Positions 1 to 58,139 of a stretch of DNA of 59,760 bases are shown here, piece after piece (position 1 is the stretch's first letter; the number at the start of each line of letters is the position of its first letter). Location of the stretch: IMG/VR virus record IMGVR_UViG_3300045135_000357, positions 1 through 59,760 of that record; one strand, 5' to 3'. Position numbers and translations under genes: made by a program. The notes beneath the pieces were generated by a model. That model was given only the letters and a program-made list of their open reading frames with translations, had not been told where the DNA came from and made no database searches. The DNA comes from a virus.

Positions 1-977
1 TTATACTGCGCCTTCAGCTGCGCATCAGTTTCGGCCTCGTTGTATAGCGATCTGATATATAGCGTCATCGCCAATGCCAGATGCAGACGCATCGGGTGTT
101 CCTCGTCGGCAATCACATCACGTGCTAGCTTGTCAGTGAACATATGCTGAATGTCCCAGCGCCCGATTAGTTCGACTTTGTTAACCTCGGCCCACTCGTT
201 CATCTGGTTGCGCATGTCGTTGCGATACGAGTAGTCCCGCACATGCAGCATGGGTGCGATAGCAAACGCCCAGTCACGGAAGGTTTCGATGTGTGGTTTC
301 AGCATAGCTTTGCGTTCTTTATCCACACGCACCTTCGGTGGCACGGGGACGTCGTTACCACCATCGACCCACTTGAACGCGCCGTCCACGAGACGGAATG
401 TAAGTGATGCCTTGTCGTCCTGTGCCATGGCCCACTCGGCGCGCTTCGTGACGTAGTGCGACTTCGGGCTTTGTTTGGCGTCTGCTTGTATCTTGTCATA
501 TAGCGCACGGGGCACGGTGCGGGTCTTGGCGAGGAAGTATGCCTGCCCACCTGCGCTGATGAAGTGCTTGCCGTTGCGGTTGATGAAGCTGAGACCCCAT
601 GGTGTATGACGCCACAGGAACGCGTAGCGCATGTTGTGTTGATACGGACCCCAACCGTTGCGCAGTGTAACTTCTTCTGTTCCGTCACGATACTTGCGCC
701 ACACGATGGGTGCATACTTCTCCATGTCCTTGAGTGTTGGTCGGTATTTCGCATTAAACCAGTGGTAGTGGCCGAAGTGCTCGTCACCCATGTGGTATCC
801 GTCCGACAGGGCGTAGCAGTAGTCGCTGATCTTGACGATGCGCTCATACTTGCGCTTGCGGTCGCCGATGGGGCGGATGTCCTTGCCCTTGTTAGCTGCG
901 CCGCCGAGCGGCTTGATGTTGTTATAGTATGCTTCGACTTCTGCGAAGTTGCTAAACGATGTAAATGTACGTGCCAT
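1..977 (-). CDS. Conserved-looking phage protein, C-terminus cut by window edge
   Basis: Reading leftward from ATG 977-975, at least 325 codons stay open to the left edge, so the C-terminus lies outside the window. The start follows a good ribosome binding site (AGGAGCTAAG just upstream) and begins MARTFTSFSNFAEVEAYYNN. The protein is rich in Tyr, Trp and charged residues and shows no signal peptide, membrane segment or recognisable catalytic motif. One stretch (GDEHFGHYHW, about residues 67-76) is His-rich but I cannot assign it to a family. It is the last visible gene of the leftward early arm, 28 bases after the preceding gene, with a GTTAGTG/CACTAAC palindrome immediately upstream. Function unknown; the coding call itself is secure. 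Confidence 0.8.
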   Translation of the reverse strand, partial: MARTFTSFSNFAEVEAYYNNIKPLGGAANKGKDIRPIGDRKRKYERIVKISDYCYALSDGYHMGDEHFGHYHWFNAKYRPTLKDMEKYAPIVWRKYRDGTEEVTLRNGWGPYQHNMRYAFLWRHTPWGLSFINRNGKHFISAGGQAYFLAKTRTVPRALYDKIQADAKQSPKSHYVTKRAEWAMAQDDKASLTFRLVDGAFKWVDGGNDVPVPPKVRVDKERKAMLKPHIETFRDWAFAIAPMLHVRDYSYRNDMRNQMNEWAEVNKVELIGRWDIQHMFTDKLARDVIADEEHPMRLHLALAMTLYIRSLYNEAETDAQLKAQY

Positions 978-1010: not shown

Positions 1011-1419
1011 CGAAGTTGTGCTTGATCTCGCGGCTCACACCGCACATGTCCCACAGGTATTCCCGCAGGTCTCCGTTGTCGTCATTCTCTATAAGTTCTT
1101 CCTCGATGTCCGGTGTCTCCTCTCCGATGCGATACTTCACCCACGCATACTGCATGTTTCTGTTATCGGCGAACTGCTCCGCCACCGCTTGCAGGTGCTC
1201 GTAACCCTGCACGTCCTCATACTCTTCATACCATTTCACACAGCCAATCTCCCACCACAGGCAGTATATGCCAGCCTCCTCGTCGTCGTGGTTATTCCAC
1301 GCCTCTGCGATGTTGTGCTTCTGCACACGCGGGTCCATGCAATACACAGCCCACACCTCGTCACGATCCTGCTTACGTGCGAAGGCGATAGCCAATAATA
1401 CTTCGCTTCTATATCCCAT
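1006..1419 (-). CDS. Small phage protein of the MGYRSEV type
   Basis: 137 residues starting MGYRSEVLLAIAF. The ATG at 1419-1417 overlaps the TGA of the preceding gene as TGATG, which argues for translational coupling; a GTG one codon further upstream is less likely. The protein has an N-terminal hydrophobic beta-like segment, several Trp/Tyr residues in the middle (WWEIGCVKWYEEYEDV) and an acidic C-terminal half. Phage proteins with an MGYRSEV start recur as hypotheticals, but no biochemical role is known to me. Its stop codon lies inside the palindrome at 994-1010. Confidence 0.7.
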   Translation of the reverse strand: MGYRSEVLLAIAFARKQDRDEVWAVYCMDPRVQKHNIAEAWNNHDDEEAGIYCLWWEIGCVKWYEEYEDVQGYEHLQAVAEQFADNRNMQYAWVKYRIGEETPDIEEELIENDDNGDLREYLWDMCGVSREIKHNFG

Positions 1420-2648
1420 CACATGTCCCTCGATTTGATGTGCACGGTCTTGCCCACGTCAGGCTTGGCGCGCTCGTTATCCAACACAGTCCACAGCACG
1501 GGGTGGTGCCACTCACCCCAGCCACCGAACAGATAGCCATCAGTCAGCACGATCACAGCCTGTGCTTTGATCTGGTTGTCTTGTATATACTGCGGCACAC
1601 ATTCGACGTTGGTGCCACCGCCACCCTTGGGCTTGGTTGACTGCACGATGTTGTCCACCTCGGCACCCTCGTAGCGTTCATCACCTGCCACGTCCGTGTC
1701 CCAATACAGGATGCGGATAGCCTCGGGGTGCACAGTGTCCGCCACCTCTTTGATCTCGGCGAGGAACACACCCAGTTCACGCGCACCGATAGAGCCTGAC
1801 GTGTCAATGGCCACGACGATCTCGCCGATCTGCTCACTGATACCGCTTGGCATGTAGACACCCGCGCCGATGTAGCGACGGTTGGGCCTACGCCATGTCG
1901 AGTAGTCTGTGCCCTGACAAGTTGTCTGCACAAAGGCACGCAGCACCTCACGCCAGTCCACTTGTGGCTGAAGCAGTTCAACCATGTCACGGTCAGCACC
2001 ATTGCCCAGCTTGCCTGCGGCCAGCGCACCTTGGCGCACAGCTTCGTCGATCTCACGTGCGAGTTCGCGCTGCTCGTCTGCGGTCATAGCCTGCGCATCT
2101 TCCCATCCGTGCTCGTCGAAACCTTTACCGCTGCCATTTGGCATACCCTGTCCATCACCTTGTCCTGAGCCGTTACCCTGTCCTTGGCCTTGTTGCTTCA
2201 GGTCGTTGAACACCTGCGCGCTGTCCCACCCACGATACTTCTCATCGAAGCAGCCGATGTTGAGCGGCCCGTCCATGGTGGCGAACAGGTCCGCGTTGTC
2301 GTCCACCAGCTTGATGTTAATCACGTAGTCACACGCCATGTTGGCCAGCTGCGGGTCTTCGTCATACAGGTGCTTCCACGTTGTCAGGTGACGATACAGC
2401 TTGTGATACTCCTCGTGCAGCACAAGGAAGCGCAGCTGCCGGTCGTTGAGGTCGGCGATAAAGTCAGCACCGAACACCACGTCCTTGCCGTTCGTGTATG
2501 CTGTCGGACACTTGGATGCGTCATACTCGACGCGACGTGACCCGATCATCAGCACACCAGCCAGCGCCATGTATTTGGGGTTGGCCATGATGTCGATCAC
2601 GGCCTTCTGCACCCTCTGGTCTGGCGATAAGTTGTTCATCATTAACAT
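1419..2648 (-). CDS. CobT-like protein: putative HExxH metallopeptidase plus VWA domain
   Basis: 409 residues; the start is ATG 2648 behind AGGAG (AGGAGAACACACATG). The N-terminal part carries HEEYH, an HExxH zinc-binding motif, at about residues 78-82. A Gly/Gln-rich linker follows at about 153-175. The C-terminal von Willebrand A domain has a complete MIDAS: DTSGS at about 282-286, the Thr in GGGGTN, and the Asp in VLTDGY. This layout matches the VWA-like metallopeptidase family that partners MoxR/CobS-type AAA+ ATPases. The AAA+ gene lies two genes upstream in the same operon, so the pair probably forms an ATP-driven remodelling complex. CobT of aerobic cobaltochelatase is a distant analogue, but no CobN is visible, so a B12 role is not supported. 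Substrate unknown. Confidence 0.75.
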   Translation of the reverse strand: MLMMNNLSPDQRVQKAVIDIMANPKYMALAGVLMIGSRRVEYDASKCPTAYTNGKDVVFGADFIADLNDRQLRFLVLHEEYHKLYRHLTTWKHLYDEDPQLANMACDYVINIKLVDDNADLFATMDGPLNIGCFDEKYRGWDSAQVFNDLKQQGQGQGNGSGQGDGQGMPNGSGKGFDEHGWEDAQAMTADEQRELAREIDEAVRQGALAAGKLGNGADRDMVELLQPQVDWREVLRAFVQTTCQGTDYSTWRRPNRRYIGAGVYMPSGISEQIGEIVVAIDTSGSIGARELGVFLAEIKEVADTVHPEAIRILYWDTDVAGDERYEGAEVDNIVQSTKPKGGGGTNVECVPQYIQDNQIKAQAVIVLTDGYLFGGWGEWHHPVLWTVLDNERAKPDVGKTVHIKSRDM

Positions 2649-2659
2649 GTGTGTTCTCC

Positions 2660-2947
2660 TCACAGTCCTAGTATGCGTTTCCACCACGGCTTCTTCTCCA
2701 CCGTCGGTGCCTCGTCGTAAGTTGTTAGTGCGACACTAACAGTCTCGTATCGCTTGGGTTGCTTGTGCAGCTGCATGGAATAGATGCGCTGCGTTACTGC
2801 GCCGTGTGAACGGCCCAGCTGCTTGGCGATGTCCCAGTTGCTTGCACCCGTGTGATACATGTTGACGAGCGTATCCACTTCGTCGTCGGTCCACCGTGTG
2901 TTGGTGCGGCCTTCCTTGCGCTTGTATTTCTTCTGGTATGGTTTCAT
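2660..2947 (-). CDS. Small HTH (Myb/SANT-like) DNA-binding protein
   Basis: 95 residues, very basic N-terminus (KPYQKKYKRKEGR), start ATG 2947 behind GGAGACAGACC. Residues about 18-57 (RWTDDEVDTLVNMY ... GASNWDIAKQLGRSHGAV) fit a Myb/SANT or GcrA-like helix-turn-helix, with the conserved Trp and the IAKQLGRS recognition region. It is probably a sequence-specific DNA-binding regulator. It lies between the AAA+ gene and the VWA gene. The palindrome copy at 2724-2740 is inside its coding sequence and encodes VSVALT near the C-terminus. A role in binding the repeated palindromes is possible but untested. Confidence 0.65.
   Translation of the reverse strand: MKPYQKKYKRKEGRTNTRWTDDEVDTLVNMYHTGASNWDIAKQLGRSHGAVTQRIYSMQLHKQPKRYETVSVALTTYDEAPTVEKKPWWKRILGL
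2724..2740. repeat. 12-copy palindrome, copy 2 (loop CGA), inside a CDS
   Basis: GTTAGTG-CGA-CACTAAC. It lies within the small HTH gene, read in frame near its 3' end, 76 bases upstream of the VWA gene start. Confidence 0.9.
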
Positions 2948-2959
2948 TGGTCTGTCTCC

Positions 2960-4051
2960 TTAGCGTTTGTCTGCTGCGAAAAGGTAGTTGTTCTGCATGG
3001 CCCATGCGGTGAACTTCTTGTTGGTCATCACCATGGACTGCTTGGAATACTTGGGTGCACGGACACCGTTGGCGAACATACCCTGTGCTTCCTTGTCGAG
3101 GCGCACCATGTAGTCGAGCCACGCATCCACCCAGTCTTTCTCCAAAGATGCAAGGGTGCGATACACCACCATACACACGGCAGCTGCACTGTCTGGCACC
3201 TTGGCGTTCTTCGGGTCGTCCTTGATAGACTGCAAAGACGGAAGCTGGTCGGCCATCTTGACGAACGCCATCAGGTCCATCGCCGCACGATCACCGATAG
3301 TGCCCATGAGTGTGCCCGTCAGGGTCTGGTCATCGAACAGGTGGCGTTCTTTCAGGATGTCAGACGCAGCTTCGAGTGAGCGAGGCGTGACAAACGCAGC
3401 GCGCTGTGCCTTGGGGTGGAATATATACGGGTTATCATCGGGGTCGCGCACATCTTCGAACGACAAGAACAGCTGCGGGTTATCCTTACACCAACCAAGC
3501 AGGGTGTGATCCACGCCGTTGTTGATGCCCCACTCGATCCACTCCATGTTGCTCGGCTTGCGAGCGGTGATGACGGTGATGCGGTTCCGTGCATGTGGTG
3601 GTAACAAGTCACCGACACCCTCGGCCCCGAGGTTCGTGGTCGCAAAGATAATGCTGTCAGGGTGCAGCGTGTAACTGCCGATCTTGCGCTCCAACATGAG
3701 GCGCAGCAGTGCCAGCTTCACGGACGGGTTAGCCTTGCCATACTCGTCGATCATCAGGATGATGGGTGCCTTGATGTGCGCGCCCAACTCCTCGTTCGTT
3801 GCGTATGTGACGTAGCCCTGCCCGTCTGCTGTTGCGATGTTAGGCAGCGTGATGTCGCCCAAGTCCTTCGTGGTGCAGTCGAAGTAGCATGGCGTATGCG
3901 TGGGCAGGCGTTTAGCCAGTGCGGACAAGAGCGAGGACTTGCCCGTGCCCATGTGGCCTTGCACCAGTGAGGTGCGCTTGTGGCCTGTCGCTGCGATGAA
4001 CGCTTCGATCTGATCGAGGTTCAGCTGATACATTTGCTGTGCTGTAGTCAT
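2960..4051 (-). CDS. MoxR/CobS-like AAA+ ATPase
   Basis: 363 residues from ATG 4051, preceded by AGGAGAACTACC. An upstream in-frame ATG at 4120 would put the palindrome and a hairpin inside the coding region and has no ribosome site, so it is rejected. Walker A is GHMGTGKS (about 32-39), Walker B ILMIDE (about 98-103), sensor-1 ATTN (about 137-140), and the likely arginine finger region is HARNR (about 153-157). The sequence has the single-domain MoxR/CobS arrangement. In these families the ATPase ring works with a VWA partner; here that partner is encoded at 1419-2648, and a DUF3150-like protein is encoded directly upstream. CobS homologues are known in cyanophages, but the function in phages is unsettled. 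Confidence 0.85.
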   Translation of the reverse strand: MTTAQQMYQLNLDQIEAFIAATGHKRTSLVQGHMGTGKSSLLSALAKRLPTHTPCYFDCTTKDLGDITLPNIATADGQGYVTYATNEELGAHIKAPIILMIDEYGKANPSVKLALLRLMLERKIGSYTLHPDSIIFATTNLGAEGVGDLLPPHARNRITVITARKPSNMEWIEWGINNGVDHTLLGWCKDNPQLFLSFEDVRDPDDNPYIFHPKAQRAAFVTPRSLEAASDILKERHLFDDQTLTGTLMGTIGDRAAMDLMAFVKMADQLPSLQSIKDDPKNAKVPDSAAAVCMVVYRTLASLEKDWVDAWLDYMVRLDKEAQGMFANGVRAPKYSKQSMVMTNKKFTAWAMQNNYLFAADKR

Positions 4052-4072
4052 GGTAGTTCTCCTGTTTGTTTG

Positions 4073-4089
4073 CCGTGGCGTAGCCACGG
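4073..4089. promoter_or_regulatory. Leader hairpin before AAA+ gene
   Basis: Perfect inverted repeat CCGTGGC-GTA-GCCACGG. It lies between the palindrome at 4101-4118 and the AAA+ ribosome binding site. There is no T-tract on either strand, so it is not a classical terminator. A hairpin in the same relative position occurs at 5727-5743. Confidence 0.55.
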
Positions 4090-4100
4090 GTTCTCCGTTT

Positions 4101-4118
4101 GTTAGTGGCGGCACTAAC
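4101..4118. repeat. 12-copy palindrome, copy 3 (loop GCGG)
   Basis: GTTAGTG-GCGG-CACTAAC. It lies in the gap between the DUF3150-like gene (stop at 4133) and the AAA+ gene start. Confidence 0.9.
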
Positions 4119-4132
4119 ACCGCCTGTTAAGT

Positions 4133-5047
4133 TTACATGTCGAGCGAAGGCAGAGACTTGATCGCCTCGTCCACCGCACGTTTGGTTTCACGGCGCAGAT
4201 ACTCGTCCTCGCGCAGCGCACTCGGCGTCACACCTCGCATCGCGTCGTCCAGCTTGTCGGCCATAGCTGACATCTGACTGTCGTTGTTCACGTTGCACAC
4301 GCGCAGCAGCTCAATCATCTCGGCCACGTTATCGACCAGCGTGTCACGGAAGATTTTCTTCTGCTCGTGGTCGCCGTAGTCGAGCCGCTCGGACATGCGG
4401 GACAGCGCATCGTATGCACGTTTCCACACGTCGTTCATGGCGTTGCTGAGTTGAGTGCTGTAGTAGTTCGAGTAGTGCGCCTTGAGTTCTTCGGCTGCGT
4501 CGTTTTGCAGGTCGATGCGGAAGTCACCCGCGTCAGGCAGCGGGATATACGTCAGGCCAAAGCGAAACTTTTTGCGCAGGCTGTCGAGCGTGGGGTAGTC
4601 ATCACGCAGGAACAAGTCACCCAGCTTGGTTTGGGCTTGGCTGATCTCCCAGTCATACGCGTCGAGGAACAGCTGCACGAGCCGCTCGTATTCGTTCTGC
4701 AACGCGGTCATCTGCTCGTTGTATTTGAAATACTGCGCCGTAGGCAGCAGGCGCAGGCCGGTATCGGACCACGGCATTGTCATGGCGTAGTGCGCGTTGC
4801 GCAGGTTGGCCGTGAATTTCTGCACCGCGACGAGTTCGGCGCAGTCACCCAGCAGTTTCTTGTTCACCGCTGCGACACCTGCCGCTGCGTAGTTCTGCTG
4901 CGTGACGTCTTCCGATGCGCGCTTGTCTTTCTTGCGGCCCGTCCATGTGCTGATGCTGAGTTCGACGAGCATCGAGGACGACGAGATCGTGGGGGTGTGC
5001 GCCTCCGGTGCAGGAGTGAGCGGGTTGAGGTGAGCGACGTTTGTCAT
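4133..5047 (-). CDS. DUF3150-like partner of the AAA+/VWA pair
   Basis: 304 residues from ATG 5047 with a GGAGAACTACC ribosome site. The protein is mostly helical and hydrophilic: an N-terminal Pro/Ser-rich stretch (about 1-25), then LVELSISTWTGRKKDK (about 27-42), and long charged helices to the end. The LxISxWxGRKK start and the position next to MoxR-type ATPase and VWA genes match what I know of DUF3150 proteins in phages and mobile elements; this is by recollection, not by search. It has no enzyme motif and is probably an adaptor or substrate of the ATPase complex. It has its own strong leftward promoter at 5147-5175 with an operator-like inverted repeat, and a palindrome 14 bases upstream of its start. 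Confidence 0.65.
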   Translation of the reverse strand: MTNVAHLNPLTPAPEAHTPTISSSSMLVELSISTWTGRKKDKRASEDVTQQNYAAAGVAAVNKKLLGDCAELVAVQKFTANLRNAHYAMTMPWSDTGLRLLPTAQYFKYNEQMTALQNEYERLVQLFLDAYDWEISQAQTKLGDLFLRDDYPTLDSLRKKFRFGLTYIPLPDAGDFRIDLQNDAAEELKAHYSNYYSTQLSNAMNDVWKRAYDALSRMSERLDYGDHEQKKIFRDTLVDNVAEMIELLRVCNVNNDSQMSAMADKLDDAMRGVTPSALREDEYLRRETKRAVDEAIKSLPSLDM

Positions 5048-5061
5048 GGTAGTTCTCCGTT

Positions 5062-5078
5062 GTTAGTGCCGCACTAAC
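5062..5078. repeat. 12-copy palindrome, copy 4 (loop CCG)
   Basis: GTTAGTG-CCG-CACTAAC. It lies in the 5' leader of the DUF3150-like gene, between the promoter at 5147-5175 and the ribosome binding site. Confidence 0.9.
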
Positions 5079-5146: not shown

Positions 5147-5175
5147 ATCATACCATAGTGCGCCCACTATGGCAA
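5147..5175 (-). promoter_or_regulatory. Leftward sigma70-like promoter with palindromic spacer
   Basis: On the minus strand: TTGCCA (5175-5170), 17-base spacer, TATGAT (5152-5147). The spacer and -35 contain the inverted repeat CCATAGTG-CGCC-CACTATGG (5153-5172), a likely operator. Its TAGTG/CACTA core resembles the 12-copy palindrome. The promoter would drive the DUF3150-like, AAA+, HTH and VWA genes. Confidence 0.75.
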
Positions 5176-5408: not shown

Positions 5409-5704
5409 GCCATTTCTCCTTTGTTAGTGTCGGCACTAACAGGCACCAACATCTCCACGTCGTAACAGTCACACGCGAGGACGCCGTATTCGGCAGCGTC
5501 GTGGTAACGCGCGAAGTATGTCTCGTCTTTGATTGTGCCGATCAATGGCGCTTGGCCGTGGCCGATGTCGCGGACCGTGTCCGCAAGCCAGCGTTCGAAG
5601 GCAGAGCCTTCTTCCTCGTCGAGGCCGCTGATGTCGCCGTAAAGCACAGGGCAAATCCAGTGGGCAGGCAGGCTCAGGGTGATGTGTTCGAAGCGCGTAG
5701 TCAT
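5405..5704 (-). CDS. Unknown 99-residue early protein
   Basis: 99 residues from ATG 5704, with TAGGAGATAAGAT upstream. It is acidic, with a central segment YGDISGLDEEEGSAFERWLA and one cysteine pair (LACDCY). I recognise no family. The palindrome copy at 5423-5440 is read in frame and encodes part of the C-terminus (PVSADTN), so the repeat is tolerated inside the coding sequence. The leader contains a second palindrome (5746-5763) and a hairpin (5727-5743). Confidence 0.6.
   Translation of the reverse strand: MTTRFEHITLSLPAHWICPVLYGDISGLDEEEGSAFERWLADTVRDIGHGQAPLIGTIKDETYFARYHDAAEYGVLACDCYDVEMLVPVSADTNKGEMA
5423..5440. repeat. 12-copy palindrome, copy 5 (loop TCGG), inside a CDS end
   Basis: GTTAGTG-TCGG-CACTAAC. 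It is encoded in frame in the 3' end of the 99-residue gene and lies immediately upstream of the zinc-ribbon gene ribosome site. Confidence 0.9.
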
Positions 5705-5726
5705 ATCTTATCTCCTATTTGTGGTC

Positions 5727-5743
5727 TCGGGGCTTAGCCCCGA
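5727..5743. promoter_or_regulatory. Leader hairpin before 99-residue gene
   Basis: Perfect inverted repeat TCGGGGC-TTA-GCCCCGA directly next to the palindrome at 5746-5763. There is no following T-tract. It parallels the hairpin-plus-palindrome leader of the AAA+ gene. Confidence 0.55.
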
Positions 5744-5745
5744 TT

Positions 5746-5763
5746 GTTAGTGTCGGCACTAAC
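5746..5763. repeat. 12-copy palindrome, copy 6 (loop TCGG)
   Basis: GTTAGTG-TCGG-CACTAAC. It lies in the short gap between the 81-residue gene stop (5769) and the leader of the 99-residue gene. Confidence 0.9.
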
Positions 5764-5768
5764 ATGCC

Positions 5769-6014
5769 TTATTCCTGTGCCCAGCGTTTGGGCGTGTTGG
5801 GGTCGCGGCGCATGGGGTTGTTGCGCGTGGCGCGCTTGGGCGGGGTGATCGACGCATCCGCACGTTCTTCTCTGGCCCACTCGGCGCGGGTCGCCTTGCT
5901 GGTGCCGTGGTATCCGGCCTTGACGCGGTGGATGAAGAACTTGCCTTGGGCCTCGCGGGCAACAGCGGCACGATAGTGCATGGCGCAGAACTTGCGTAAT
6001 TCCTCTTTGGTCAT
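5769..6014 (-). CDS. Small basic protein, unknown
   Basis: 81 residues from ATG 6014 (MTKEELRKF). GGAG lies 9 bases upstream, which is better spaced than for the ATG at 6020 that overlaps the previous stop. The protein is strongly basic, with an N-terminal helix and a disordered Pro/Arg-rich C-terminus (RATRNNPMRRDPNTPKR), suggesting a nucleic-acid or RNA polymerase contact protein, but no family is recognised. It is coupled to the upstream 66-residue gene. Confidence 0.55.
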   Translation of the reverse strand: MTKEELRKFCAMHYRAAVAREAQGKFFIHRVKAGYHGTSKATRAEWAREERADASITPPKRATRNNPMRRDPNTPKRWAQE

Positions 6015-6016
6015 GG

Positions 6017-6217
6017 TCATTCTCCGTTCATGGCGGCTTCTAGGGCCAGCATTTCTCTGAGGGCAGCTTGGACGCGACGCGAGGCGGTATCGAACGCTTC
6101 GATCTCCAACGCGTCCTGCGCATCTTGCAACAGGGCGCGAACCCACGTTGATTTTGAGCGCACCAGCATTCGGGTTTCGGCGTGGTCCCAGTGGGCAAGT
6201 ATCTCAGCATCAGTCAT
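6017..6217 (-). CDS. Small helical protein, unknown; first gene after promoter
   Basis: 66 residues from ATG 6217, preceded by AAAGGATACAAGAT. It is predicted helical, with Ala/Leu/Glu heptad-like stretches (ALREMLALEAAMNGE) and no motif. It is the first gene downstream of the strong leftward promoter at 6314-6342. The palindrome at 6232-6248 lies in its 5' leader, so this is likely an immediate-early transcript start. Confidence 0.55.
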   Translation of the reverse strand: MTDAEILAHWDHAETRMLVRSKSTWVRALLQDAQDALEIEAFDTASRRVQAALREMLALEAAMNGE

Positions 6218-6231
6218 ATCTTGTATCCTTT

Positions 6232-6248
6232 GTTAGTGCGGCACTAAC
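6232..6248. repeat. 12-copy palindrome, copy 7 (loop CGG)
   Basis: GTTAGTG-CGG-CACTAAC in the 5' leader of the first left-arm gene. A lone half-site GTTAGTG follows at 6276-6282, still downstream of the promoter. Confidence 0.9.
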
Positions 6249-6313
6249 AGTGCGGCGGGGTGGAAGCTGGTAGTGGTTAGTGTTAAGCGGTTAGTTTTGG
6301 TGGTATTTCTTAT

Positions 6314-6342
6314 AGAATACCGCAAGTGGACCACTATGTCAA
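6314..6342 (-). promoter_or_regulatory. Strong leftward sigma70 promoter
   Basis: On the minus strand: TTGACA (6342-6337), exactly 17 bases, TATTCT (6319-6314). The spacer includes AGTGG-A-CCACT (6325-6335), an inverted repeat similar to the operator-like spacer at 5153-5172. It would drive the left arm from the 66-residue gene leftward. Confidence 0.8.
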
Positions 6343-6360
6343 ATGTTTGGCCTATCAGGC

Positions 6361-6660
6361 GGTGGTATCTGGTGGTATCTGGTGTAATGTCGCTGAATGT
6401 CGCAAGATGTCGTAGGTAGAGGGTCTGTAAGTGTATGAAAATAAAAGAATGTTCATAAATAATAAATGTTCCTAAAATTGTATACTCATGTTTGACGCGG
6501 ATATTTGGGGGGAATCGGCCCCAGCCCCTGCCTTAGTTTCGGTGCCTCAAAATCCGAGGACACTACCTTACCCCCCCGACATTAGGAACATTTCGTAAAA
6601 TCAATGGGTTACAAGGGGTCCTACCACCGACATTAGCGACATTATCACGGATACCACTAT
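6361..6660. other. Possible replication origin: iteron-like repeats around an AT-rich core
   Basis: Two GGTGGTATCT repeats (6361-6380) are followed by three head-to-tail 10-bp units of the form (A/G)ATGTCGnnn (6386-6415). Then comes an AT-rich tract (6431-6490). On the other side are three inverted CGACATT copies (6577-6583, 6628-6634, 6637-6643). A 12-bp inverted pair, AAATGTTCCTAA (6464-6475) and TTAGGAACATTT (6582-6593), frames the core. The architecture resembles iteron origins; no initiator binding is shown. Confidence 0.45.
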
Positions 6661-6720
6661 TTACCATTTCCTGATAGGCAGTTTTGGGGGGTCCGAACCC
6701 GTGCCTTCTCCCCGAACTAT

Positions 6721-6773
6721 CAGGCGCTATGCAACTCTAAGAACTGGCATCGTTTGTTAGTGTCGGCACTAAC
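6721..6773. repeat. 52-bp intergenic repeat, copy A (with palindrome copy 8, 6756-6773)
   Basis: GGCGCT-nn-GCAACTCTAAGAACTGGCATC-type segment ending in GTTAGTG-TCGG-CACTAAC. Three copies lie within 290 bases. Confidence 0.85.
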
Positions 6774-6835
6774 AGTAAAACGGAACATTACTTTCTTATC
6801 AACGTATTAGCACAAACCGCTTATTGACGAGTTGT

Positions 6836-6887
6836 CAGGCGCTACGCAACTCTAGGAACTGGCATCAGTTGTTAGTGTAACACTAAC
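6836..6887. repeat. 52-bp intergenic repeat, copy B (with palindrome copy 9, 6871-6887)
   Basis: Same segment as copy A with a few substitutions (CTCTAGGAACTGGCATCAG), ending in GTTAGTG-TAA-CACTAAC. It directly abuts the T-tract side of the leftward terminator at 6888-6913. Confidence 0.85.
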
Positions 6888-6913
6888 AAAAAAAGCCCCG
6901 CGCGAGGCGGGGC
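6888..6913 (-). terminator. Leftward rho-independent terminator
   Basis: On the minus strand: GCCCCGC stem, 5-base loop, GCGGGGC, followed by seven T. It lies only about 110 bases downstream of the terminator at 7023-7054, so a very short leftward transcript may end here. Confidence 0.8.
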
Positions 6914-6957
6914 AGTGGGCAGTGGTAGGCAATGTAGTAGAACCATAGCATAGTGCT

Positions 6958-7008
6958 AGGCGCTGCGCAACTCTAAGAACTGGCATCGTTTGTTAGTGCG
7001 GCACTAAC
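6958..7008. repeat. 52-bp intergenic repeat, copy C (with palindrome copy 10, 6992-7008)
   Basis: Nearly identical to copy A, ending in GTTAGTG-CGG-CACTAAC. On the minus strand TTGCGC (6979-6974) lies 17 bases from TATGGT, a weak possible promoter for a transcript of about 45 bases ending at 6888. Confidence 0.8.
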
Positions 7009-7022
7009 AAATCAGCGGGCAC

Positions 7023-7054
7023 AAAAAAGCCCCACCCGCCGGAGCGGATGGGGC
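7023..7054 (-). terminator. Leftward terminator after the 174-residue gene
   Basis: On the minus strand GCCCCA pairs with TGGGGC, extended after one mismatch by CCG/CGG, followed by six T. It lies directly after the stop of the gene ending at 7062. Confidence 0.8.
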
Positions 7055-7061
7055 GAAGATG

Positions 7062-7586
7062 TTATTTGACCATCTTGTTTAGGTCGCGCAGCGCTTTGAG
7101 GAAAGCCGCGGCGTCGAACGTCAGTGCCTCGGCACCTTGGACGATCTTTTCAATCGTCTCGATCTGGGCGCGGATTTTGTCCTCTGGCGACTTGGGCGGC
7201 TGCGGTGCGCGCTTGTCATCGACGCCCTCGCGCTTTTCCAAGGCGCGCTTGAAGTCGTTCCGGCGTGCGCCGATCTGTTGCTGCCAGTAGCGACGATCCG
7301 CCTTGTCAGCGTCGCCAAGCGACTTGGCAGGCGCGGCCAAAAGTTTCTGCACCCGCGCCGTGAAGCCCGCGACAATCGCCGCGTTGATCTTCTCGAAGAT
7401 TTCCTCGGTCGCGGTTGATTCCCCGCCCTTGGACTTGGGCGAGATGAAGTCGGTCGACTTGAAATCTGCCGCGTGCAGCTCATCCGCGGCGCTTGCCATC
7501 TTGCGGGCTGCGCCCTCGACGGCCGCGACGGCGGTGGTGATGACCTTGAAGGCCGCGACGGCCTGCTTTTCGTTTGCGTTTGCCAT
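7062..7586 (-). CDS. Unknown helical early protein, isolated between control regions
   Basis: 174 residues from ATG 7586, behind AGGAGTTACATC. The sequence is Ala/Lys-rich and probably almost all helical: AVAAFKVITTAVAAVEGAA in the N-terminal part, a basic middle (RYWQQQIGARRNDFKRALEKRE) and a C-terminal helix with KALRDLNKMVK. No enzyme motif or membrane segment is visible. It is a stand-alone leftward transcription unit with its own terminator (7023-7054) and an operator-like inverted repeat upstream (7615-7638). This placement fits a regulatory or DNA-binding protein acting at the control region, but that is inference. Confidence 0.7.
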   Translation of the reverse strand: MANANEKQAVAAFKVITTAVAAVEGAARKMASAADELHAADFKSTDFISPKSKGGESTATEEIFEKINAAIVAGFTARVQKLLAAPAKSLGDADKADRRYWQQQIGARRNDFKRALEKREGVDDKRAPQPPKSPEDKIRAQIETIEKIVQGAEALTFDAAAFLKALRDLNKMVK

Positions 7587-7614
7587 GATGTAACTCCTAT
7601 CTCATAGCTAATAA

Positions 7615-7638
7615 ACCGGTCGAACCGTTCGATCCGGT
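7615..7638. promoter_or_regulatory. Operator-like inverted repeat upstream of the 174-residue gene
   Basis: ACCGG-TCGAAC / GTTCGA-T-CCGGT, an inverted repeat with 11-base arms and one bulged base. It lies in the leader of the leftward gene starting at 7586. Its sequence is unrelated to the 12-copy palindrome. Confidence 0.45.
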
Positions 7639-7727
7639 AAGTAAGTTATGCCAAGTTATGGTGTGGTTTACAATAGATAACGCCCAAACGATAACGCCTG
7701 ATAGCGTAGCGTAGCGCGTCGAAACGT

Positions 7728-7746
7728 GTTAGTGAGCGGCACTAAC
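7728..7746. repeat. 12-copy palindrome, copy 11 (loop AGCGG)
   Basis: GTTAGTG-AGCGG-CACTAAC, the longest loop of the set. It lies in the divergent region upstream of the late genes. Confidence 0.9.
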
Positions 7747-16358: not shown

Positions 16359-16432
16359 TGTTATGGTGTATTTTAGTGGCATCCCTGACAGCCGCATGGT
16401 GTGGCTGACTTGACCCACGACAGGAGATACAC

Positions 16433-16669
16433 ATGGGTACTACGACCTTTAGCGGTCCGGTTGTCTCGAACAACGGCTTCACCGGTGACGTAACCGGCGC
16501 AATCAAAGTTCCAACTTACACTGTTGCTACTGCACCTTCGGCTTCCACCGCTGGTGAAGGGACTGTCGTCTACGTCTCTGACGGCGCTGCAGGCTCCGCG
16601 ATTCTTGCGTTCTCGGATGGCACTAACTGGAAACGCTCCGATACTGGCGGCACCATCGCCGCATCGTAA
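16433..16669 (+). CDS. Small beta-rich structural protein
   Basis: 78 residues behind AGGAGATACAC. It is Thr/Gly/Ala-rich with a tail-fibre-like text (FSGPVVSNNGFTGDVTGAI ... VVYVSDGAAGSAILAFSDG). It contains the YVSDGAAG-type module often found in phage fibre and head-spike proteins. It is first after the capsid terminator. Probably a virion component, possibly a head fibre. Confidence 0.6.
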   Translation: MGTTTFSGPVVSNNGFTGDVTGAIKVPTYTVATAPSASTAGEGTVVYVSDGAAGSAILAFSDGTNWKRSDTGGTIAAS

Positions 16670-58122: not shown

Positions 58123-58139
58123 GTTAGTGCGGCACTAAC
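58123..58139. repeat. 12-copy palindrome, copy 12 (loop CGG)
   Basis: GTTAGTG-CGG-CACTAAC. The only copy in the right arm. On the minus strand it provides the TAG stop of the HNH-like gene and lies in the leader of the SNF2 gene. Confidence 0.9.

Follow-up and report, generated by a model that had tools for sequence, protein, structure and literature searches.

We found that three adjoining genes of a marine phage, which encode a MoxR-type AAA+ ATPase, a DUF2201-type protein combining a VWA domain with an HExxH site, and a DUF3150 protein, recur together across phages, plasmids and integrated elements. The trio lies in IMG/VR virus record IMGVR_UViG_3300045135_000357; the window analysed here is that whole record, 59,760 bases long, and its terminase is closest to those of pelagiphages HTVC027P and HTVC023P and of cyanophages such as MinM2 (42–47% identity). 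With a probability of roughly 55%, we read the trio as a mobile-element MoxR-VWA remodelling machine that carries a metalloprotease-like site, has DUF3150 as its third partner, and serves DNA replication or recombination and not cobalamin synthesis. This partly supports a first-pass annotation made from the DNA letters: its MoxR-VWA pair is upheld, as is the dedicated third gene, and its open reading frames (ORFs) and coordinates are correct. The genes stand at the left end of the window on the minus strand and are transcribed in the order DUF3150 (4133–5047, 304 aa), AAA+ ATPase (2960–4051, 363 aa), a small GcrA/Myb-like helix-turn-helix (HTH) gene with weak Pfam matches (2660–2947) and the VWA protein (1419–2648, 409 aa). 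Terminase and structural genes occupy the opposite strand; primase, helicase, exonuclease and DNA polymerase genes at the right end share the strand of the trio. The 'early' status of the trio region is deduced from this gene layout.

The motifs of the AAA and VWA proteins are strongly conserved. The ATPase probably starts at ATG 4051 rather than at GTG 4120, the start of a longer ORF (2960–4120) that gave weak Pfam AAA scores and matched PHROG 1297 ('ATPase') at 2e-45; the sole solved relative found by its profile was midasin. Walker A (G32, G35, G37, K38), Walker B (D102, E103), sensor 1 (N140), the arginine finger (R157) and sensor 2 (R224) are each conserved in 94 or 95 of 95 non-redundant phage homologues, so that the intact Walker, sensor and finger motifs noted at first pass hold across the clade and sensor 2 joins them. 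The VWA protein probably starts at ATG 2648. Its ORF (1419–2687) matched PF13203 (DUF2201_N; 3e-29, 102.7 bits) and PF09967 (DUF2201 VWA; 3e-14, 53.8 bits), both over the gathering score, and residues 271–409 of its predicted structure adopt a VWA fold (Z as high as 12.9 across 138 residues, root-mean-square deviation 2.5) that matches MDN1-MIDAS and NorD, in a fold search that was dominated by the VWA domain and barely probed the N-terminal HExxH domain. All residues of the metal-ion-dependent adhesion site (MIDAS; D282, S284, S286, T346, D370), together with H78, E79, H87, N103 and D107, are kept in 90 of 90 non-redundant phage homologues, and H82 in 89 of 90, which bears out the complete MIDAS and intact HExxH described earlier. 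Outside this clade, HExxH is present in 7/7 other mobile partners (N4 gp25, SBP1, MinM2, CRP-810 CobT, IncC, Polaromonas and p027_SK3a) and in 5/6 partners of the canonical PF11348 lineage. Its glutamate is kept in 90/90 phage homologues, 6/6 aligned canonical-lineage partners and 7/7 further mobile partners. As a separate observation, PHROG 1314 and many phage records label this DUF2201 VWA/metallopeptidase family 'HNH endonuclease', apparently a misannotation.

The third protein matched PF11348 (DUF3150) marginally, at 26.5 bits against a cut-off of 24.9. A profile comparison joined the window-type and canonical DUF3150 families at E 7.5e-5, and their gene company is alike. The AlphaFold2 model (mean predicted local distance difference test score 83, predicted template modelling score 0.49) consists of predicted long helices and a C-terminal helical bundle. 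Sequence searches found no solved relative (the best match, a designed protein, had E 0.035), and fold searches found no convincing one (best Z 9.7, to helical bundles), an absence that does not demonstrate a new fold. Scans of Pfam, NCBIfam and PADLOC, which include no VMAP profile, gave no other family match.

Using each trio gene in turn as seed for an IMG/VR survey, we counted loci flanked by 5 kb or more on each side, drawn from the best 80 per scan and thereby biased to near relatives. All three genes were present in the same order and on the same strand in 19/19, 14/14 and 22/22 loci; the three seed sets have phages in common, and part of this co-occurrence is explained by shared descent. 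Distances correlate among the three genes at r 0.52–0.67, figures that lacked a control gene and carry no weight here. As an internal control, the same 55 loci carried the gene 977–1 in 46 cases, the early gene 7586–7062 in 32, and the HTH gene in only 8, which makes the latter an accessory gene and not the member of the unit it had been taken for. The frequent neighbour 977–1 (1–977, minus strand) follows the VWA gene beyond a short ORF (1422–1006) and is open at the window end, its frame running without a stop down to position 1. The association recurs in independent lineages. In cyanophage MinM2, the AAA, DUF3150 and VWA genes lie within 4.5 kb. Beside DUF3150 in Burkholderiales, AAA was found at 41 of 41 loci and VWA at 40 of 41, the loci being closely related to each other, and four Burkholderiales plasmids carry the trio. 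Seven canonical PF11348 loci, two of them near-identical, were drawn from a 398-genome sample: a MIDAS-bearing protein was present in all seven and a P-loop AAA in five within the stretch read, and the proteins examined fell in Pfam into AAA_5 plus CbbQ_C (ATPases) and VWA/CobT (partners). The association of the three families is far beyond chance and extends over several element types, which excludes one of the two outcomes that would have refuted the first-pass annotation, a lack of co-occurrence beyond chance. A canonical DUF3150 match occurs in 1168 of 72,556 plasmid records, 978 of these typed conjugative; conjugative plasmids carry the same module, and its job may matter for plasmid establishment besides phage infection.

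The gene neighbourhood points to DNA metabolism. The trio is directed away from the terminase in 20/20 phage loci with 8 kb upstream, and a DNA polymerase gene lies downstream in 19 of the 49 with 4.5 kb downstream. Outside phages it adjoins recombination, transfer or PRTRC genes: several canonical PF11348 loci have RecT, YqaJ exonuclease or SSB genes (RecT and YqaJ exonuclease in locus L311), plasmid p027_SK3a shows the succession SSB, RecT, exonuclease, MoxR ATPase, DUF3150 and VWA, with an insertion sequence element before the VWA gene, and an IncC plasmid shows ssb, bet, exonuclease, DUF3150 and VWA. We also noted that the Burkholderiales loci (L165–L168 and L248–L298) share a conserved gene, about 500 aa long and upstream of the trio, in 40 of 41 cases and match a type IV secretion system-type ATPase gene in 33 of 41.

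By analogy with NorQD, in which a VWA domain is seated in the AAA ring and twisted by ATP hydrolysis (PMC13036017), the trio would be expected to act as a ring-plus-VWA machine. The AAA+ protein would form an ATP-driven ring on which the VWA protein docks through its C-terminal domain, and the MIDAS may capture a target or an adaptor. The conserved HExxH glutamate suggests catalysis, and the N-terminal domain would then hold an active metal site, most simply that of a zinc protease acting on material presented by the ring. DUF3150 would be the dedicated helical third component, probably an adaptor or the object that is restructured. From the strand shared with replication genes, and from the recombination, transfer and PRTRC neighbours elsewhere, we infer that the machine serves the establishment, replication or recombination of the element's own DNA, or relieves a block that the host imposes on these processes. 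The first-pass annotation had proposed that a host target is remodelled or cleaved; nucleoprotein complexes of the element itself are an equally possible target. More tentatively, the trio may be an additional class of ternary MoxR-VWA machine that phages, plasmids and integrated elements spread and that is widely recorded as a B12 enzyme. In it, an AAA-driven, MIDAS-gated metalloprotease with a DUF3150 adaptor would remodel or cut a nucleoprotein complex and so prepare DNA that is entering or being replicated.

Several observations weigh against the remodelling machine with a protease-like site. The IncC and Polaromonas stretches listed have no AAA gene immediately next to DUF3150, the IncC AAA gene lying upstream of ssb, and no DUF3150 was seen alongside the AAA-VWA pair of N4-like, rV5-like and CRP-810 phages. 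The link between the trio and recombination genes is one of neighbourhood, counted without a control. At the HExxH site, the second histidine is lost in one of the 90 phage homologues, the canonical-lineage partner L316 reads HEIVCH, and a Variovorax plasmid homologue lacks H78 and E79 and retains the second histidine and D107; such losses suggest that proteolysis is dispensable in some lineages. A machine that only pulls or twists its target, with the HExxH metal serving structure or metal delivery, is a possibility to keep in mind, somewhat unlikely in our judgement. It would fit the two residues that the Variovorax homologue keeps, and NorQD drives metal insertion (PMC13036017), where CobS-CobT likewise act. 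It sits poorly with the persistence of the glutamate in all three comparison sets, a residue that a purely structural metal site does not need.

A further alternative, which we consider doubtful, is counter-defence: at an early point of DNA entry, the machine would disassemble or degrade a complex that serves host defence or DNA repair. The carriers, namely phages, conjugative plasmids and integrated elements, all bring in foreign DNA, and the trio is placed with early, recombination or transfer genes. However, we identified no defence partner, PADLOC returned only weak AAA matches (it lists defences and not counter-defences), and the strong conservation of the AAA protein over a wide clade (55–82% identity to that of the window) is unlike that of many arms-race genes. 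A role as chaperone for the assembly of capsid or tail proteins is very improbable: MoxR-VWA pairs often aid the assembly of large complexes (RavA-ViaA, PMC3893208), but the trio runs with the replication genes and against the terminase, and the same trio is found on plasmids and elements resembling integrative and conjugative elements, which make no capsid.

The CobS/CobT label given at first pass was not sustained. The AAA protein scored 20.9 bits against the CobS equivalog TIGR01650, whose cut-off is 558.55, and the DUF2201-type VWA protein had no match at E 0.01 to the CobT models TIGR01651, PF06213 and PF11775. As in the first-pass annotation, no family match to the cobaltochelatase subunit CobN was found in the record, which may be incomplete; a host could also supply CobN. 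We then compared the HExxH site with genuine CobT, taken as 30 loci with TIGR01651 over the cut-off. The motif is absent from the frame in 29 of the 30, the one match falling in an over-long frame and a different sequence context. At the aligned N-terminal site, the mobile-element proteins from IncC, CRP-810, L311 and p027_SK3a read HEAAH or HEAGH, and HExxH is missing there from all 14 genuine CobT sequences shown. Viral cobS-cobT have been assigned to cobalamin synthesis as auxiliary B12 genes, with the peptidase annotation of viral cobT called mistaken (PMC8651126), and this assignment recurs in papers on CRP-810 phages and on a cyanophage (PMC11288001, PMC9503304); the same literature calls the role of the viral homologues uncertain (PMC8651126, PMC11288001). 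For the mobile-element proteins examined, a set that left out the CobT of T4-like cyanophages and archaeal viruses, the HExxH comparison points the other way. An auxiliary function in which viral CobS-CobT and host CobN boost vitamin B12, as that literature proposes, is therefore the least probable explanation of the trio, given both failed equivalog models, no CobN in the record, an HExxH missing from genuine CobT, and a DUF3150 protein that has no place in cobaltochelatase.

The 'CobT' of Roseobacter phage CRP-810 (L326, 1827–5645) has the HExxH as in other mobile-element partners, and the published B12 reading of this phage family warrants the same check. CRP-810 phages were rejected as members of the group described here: CobS-CobT are present, those two proteins contain no DUF3150, and the first 30 kb hold no repeated palindrome of the kind described below. 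A fusion of DUF3150 into the CRP-810 CobS (617 aa) was likewise considered and gave no match.

Among known systems, gp24-gp25 of N4-like phages (Schitoviridae), whose function is listed as unknown (PMC2784036), resemble the trio in having an AAA ATPase adjoining a DUF2201 protein with HExxH, NxAxD and a DTSGS MIDAS, but no DUF3150 gene is annotated beside them and the VWA protein identity is about 26%. Given the difference in HExxH between mobile-element proteins and genuine CobT, the role question can be tested directly in phage N4 of E. coli. The CobS-DUF3150-CobT/VWA modules of IncC and of RecT/exonuclease elements place the same family types side by side, with HExxH and MIDAS, whereas their AAA is CbbQ/CobS-like and their VWA protein CobT-like; the relationship to the phage versions is remote (hhalign E 3e-6 for AAA, 7e-5 for DUF3150 and 3e-3 for VWA, single comparisons). 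The Burkholderiales trio keeps AAA, DUF3150 and DUF2201-type VWA in order, with DUF3150 about 30% identical, and differs in being plasmid-borne, with PRTRC ThiF genes nearby in two of the four plasmids examined. NorQ-NorD and midasin share an AAA ring with a VWA/MIDAS partner; we know of no DUF3150 partner in either. The ternary MoxR-vWA systems of Kaur et al. 2020 also combine a MoxR AAA, a vWA protein and a third conserved protein, unlike the trio in that, in the parts of that paper considered here, the third components are VMAP, iSTAND, FtsH or beta-propeller proteins and DUF3150 is not named (PMC7159879).

The region around the trio is rich in palindromes. Upstream of DUF3150, a promoter-like site (TTGCCA-17-TATGAT, 5175–5147, minus strand) has the 20-bp palindrome CCATAGTGCGCCCACTATGG (5153–5172) in its spacer. 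The operator-like spacer proposed at first pass is therefore real as a palindrome, and the promoter itself is unproven, since promoter-like matches in the region (5 versus 3.7 in shuffles) are not above chance. The window also holds 12 perfect GTTAGTG-N3..5-CACTAAC palindromes against 0 expected. All of them fall in the 15.8 kb occupied by minus-strand genes, the 44 kb structural part having none, and about half immediately precede a ribosome-binding site with its start codon. Copies precede DUF3150 (5062–5078, N3), the AAA gene (4101–4118), the VWA start by about 75 nt inside the HTH gene (2724–2740), and the gene 977–1 (994–1010); seven more are found at the head of the early region (5423, 5746, 6232, 6756, 6871, 6992 and 7728, spanning 5423–7746), and the twelfth at 58123.

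Of 117 non-redundant loci, the window included, 93 contain some palindrome with a 7-bp arm in three or more copies, compared with one at most when 40 loci were shuffled; the sequence of the palindrome varies by phage (GTTAGTC, GTTAGGC, TTTAGGG, TGTATAC and others). The 130 nt ahead of the gene start contain a copy for AAA in 58/81 loci, for DUF3150 in 41/89 and for VWA in 28/76. Judged from sequence, this looks like a putative phage-specific operator network that includes the trio. The HTH gene was rejected as its regulator, being present in 8 of 55 loci, compared with repeats in 93 of the 117. An RNA-hairpin reading was also set aside: in the 70 copies with one mismatch, the wobble-compatible G-T (9) occurs no more often than A-C (14). 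The commonest mismatches, T-C and G-A at one position, look as though half-sites vary singly, and these patterns favour putative DNA half-sites over RNA pairing; the variable spacing of 3, 4 or 5 in the window and close relatives fits half-sites less well. Inverted repeats just upstream of many phage gene starts are also known as the extended start-associated sequences (ESAS) of mycobacteriophage cluster K, whose imperfect 17-bp arms are mostly tied to a 13-bp start-associated sequence (SAS; PMC3203893); here, in contrast, the arms are perfect 7-mers whose sequence changes between phages, and SAS matches in the window are not above chance.

Three of the palindromes belong to copies of a 54-nt unit (6722–6775, 6837–6890 and 6958–7011) in which, in the minus-strand sense, the palindrome is joined to a conserved GATGCCAGTTC...GCGCCT stretch. 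Two of the three copies follow terminator-like hairpins; the units have no Rfam match at gathering scores and could be small RNAs or leader units. Elsewhere in the window, no tRNA genes were found, and Rfam matched a Mu-gpT-DE RNA at 16383–16435 (70.5 bits), directly after the major head protein gene.

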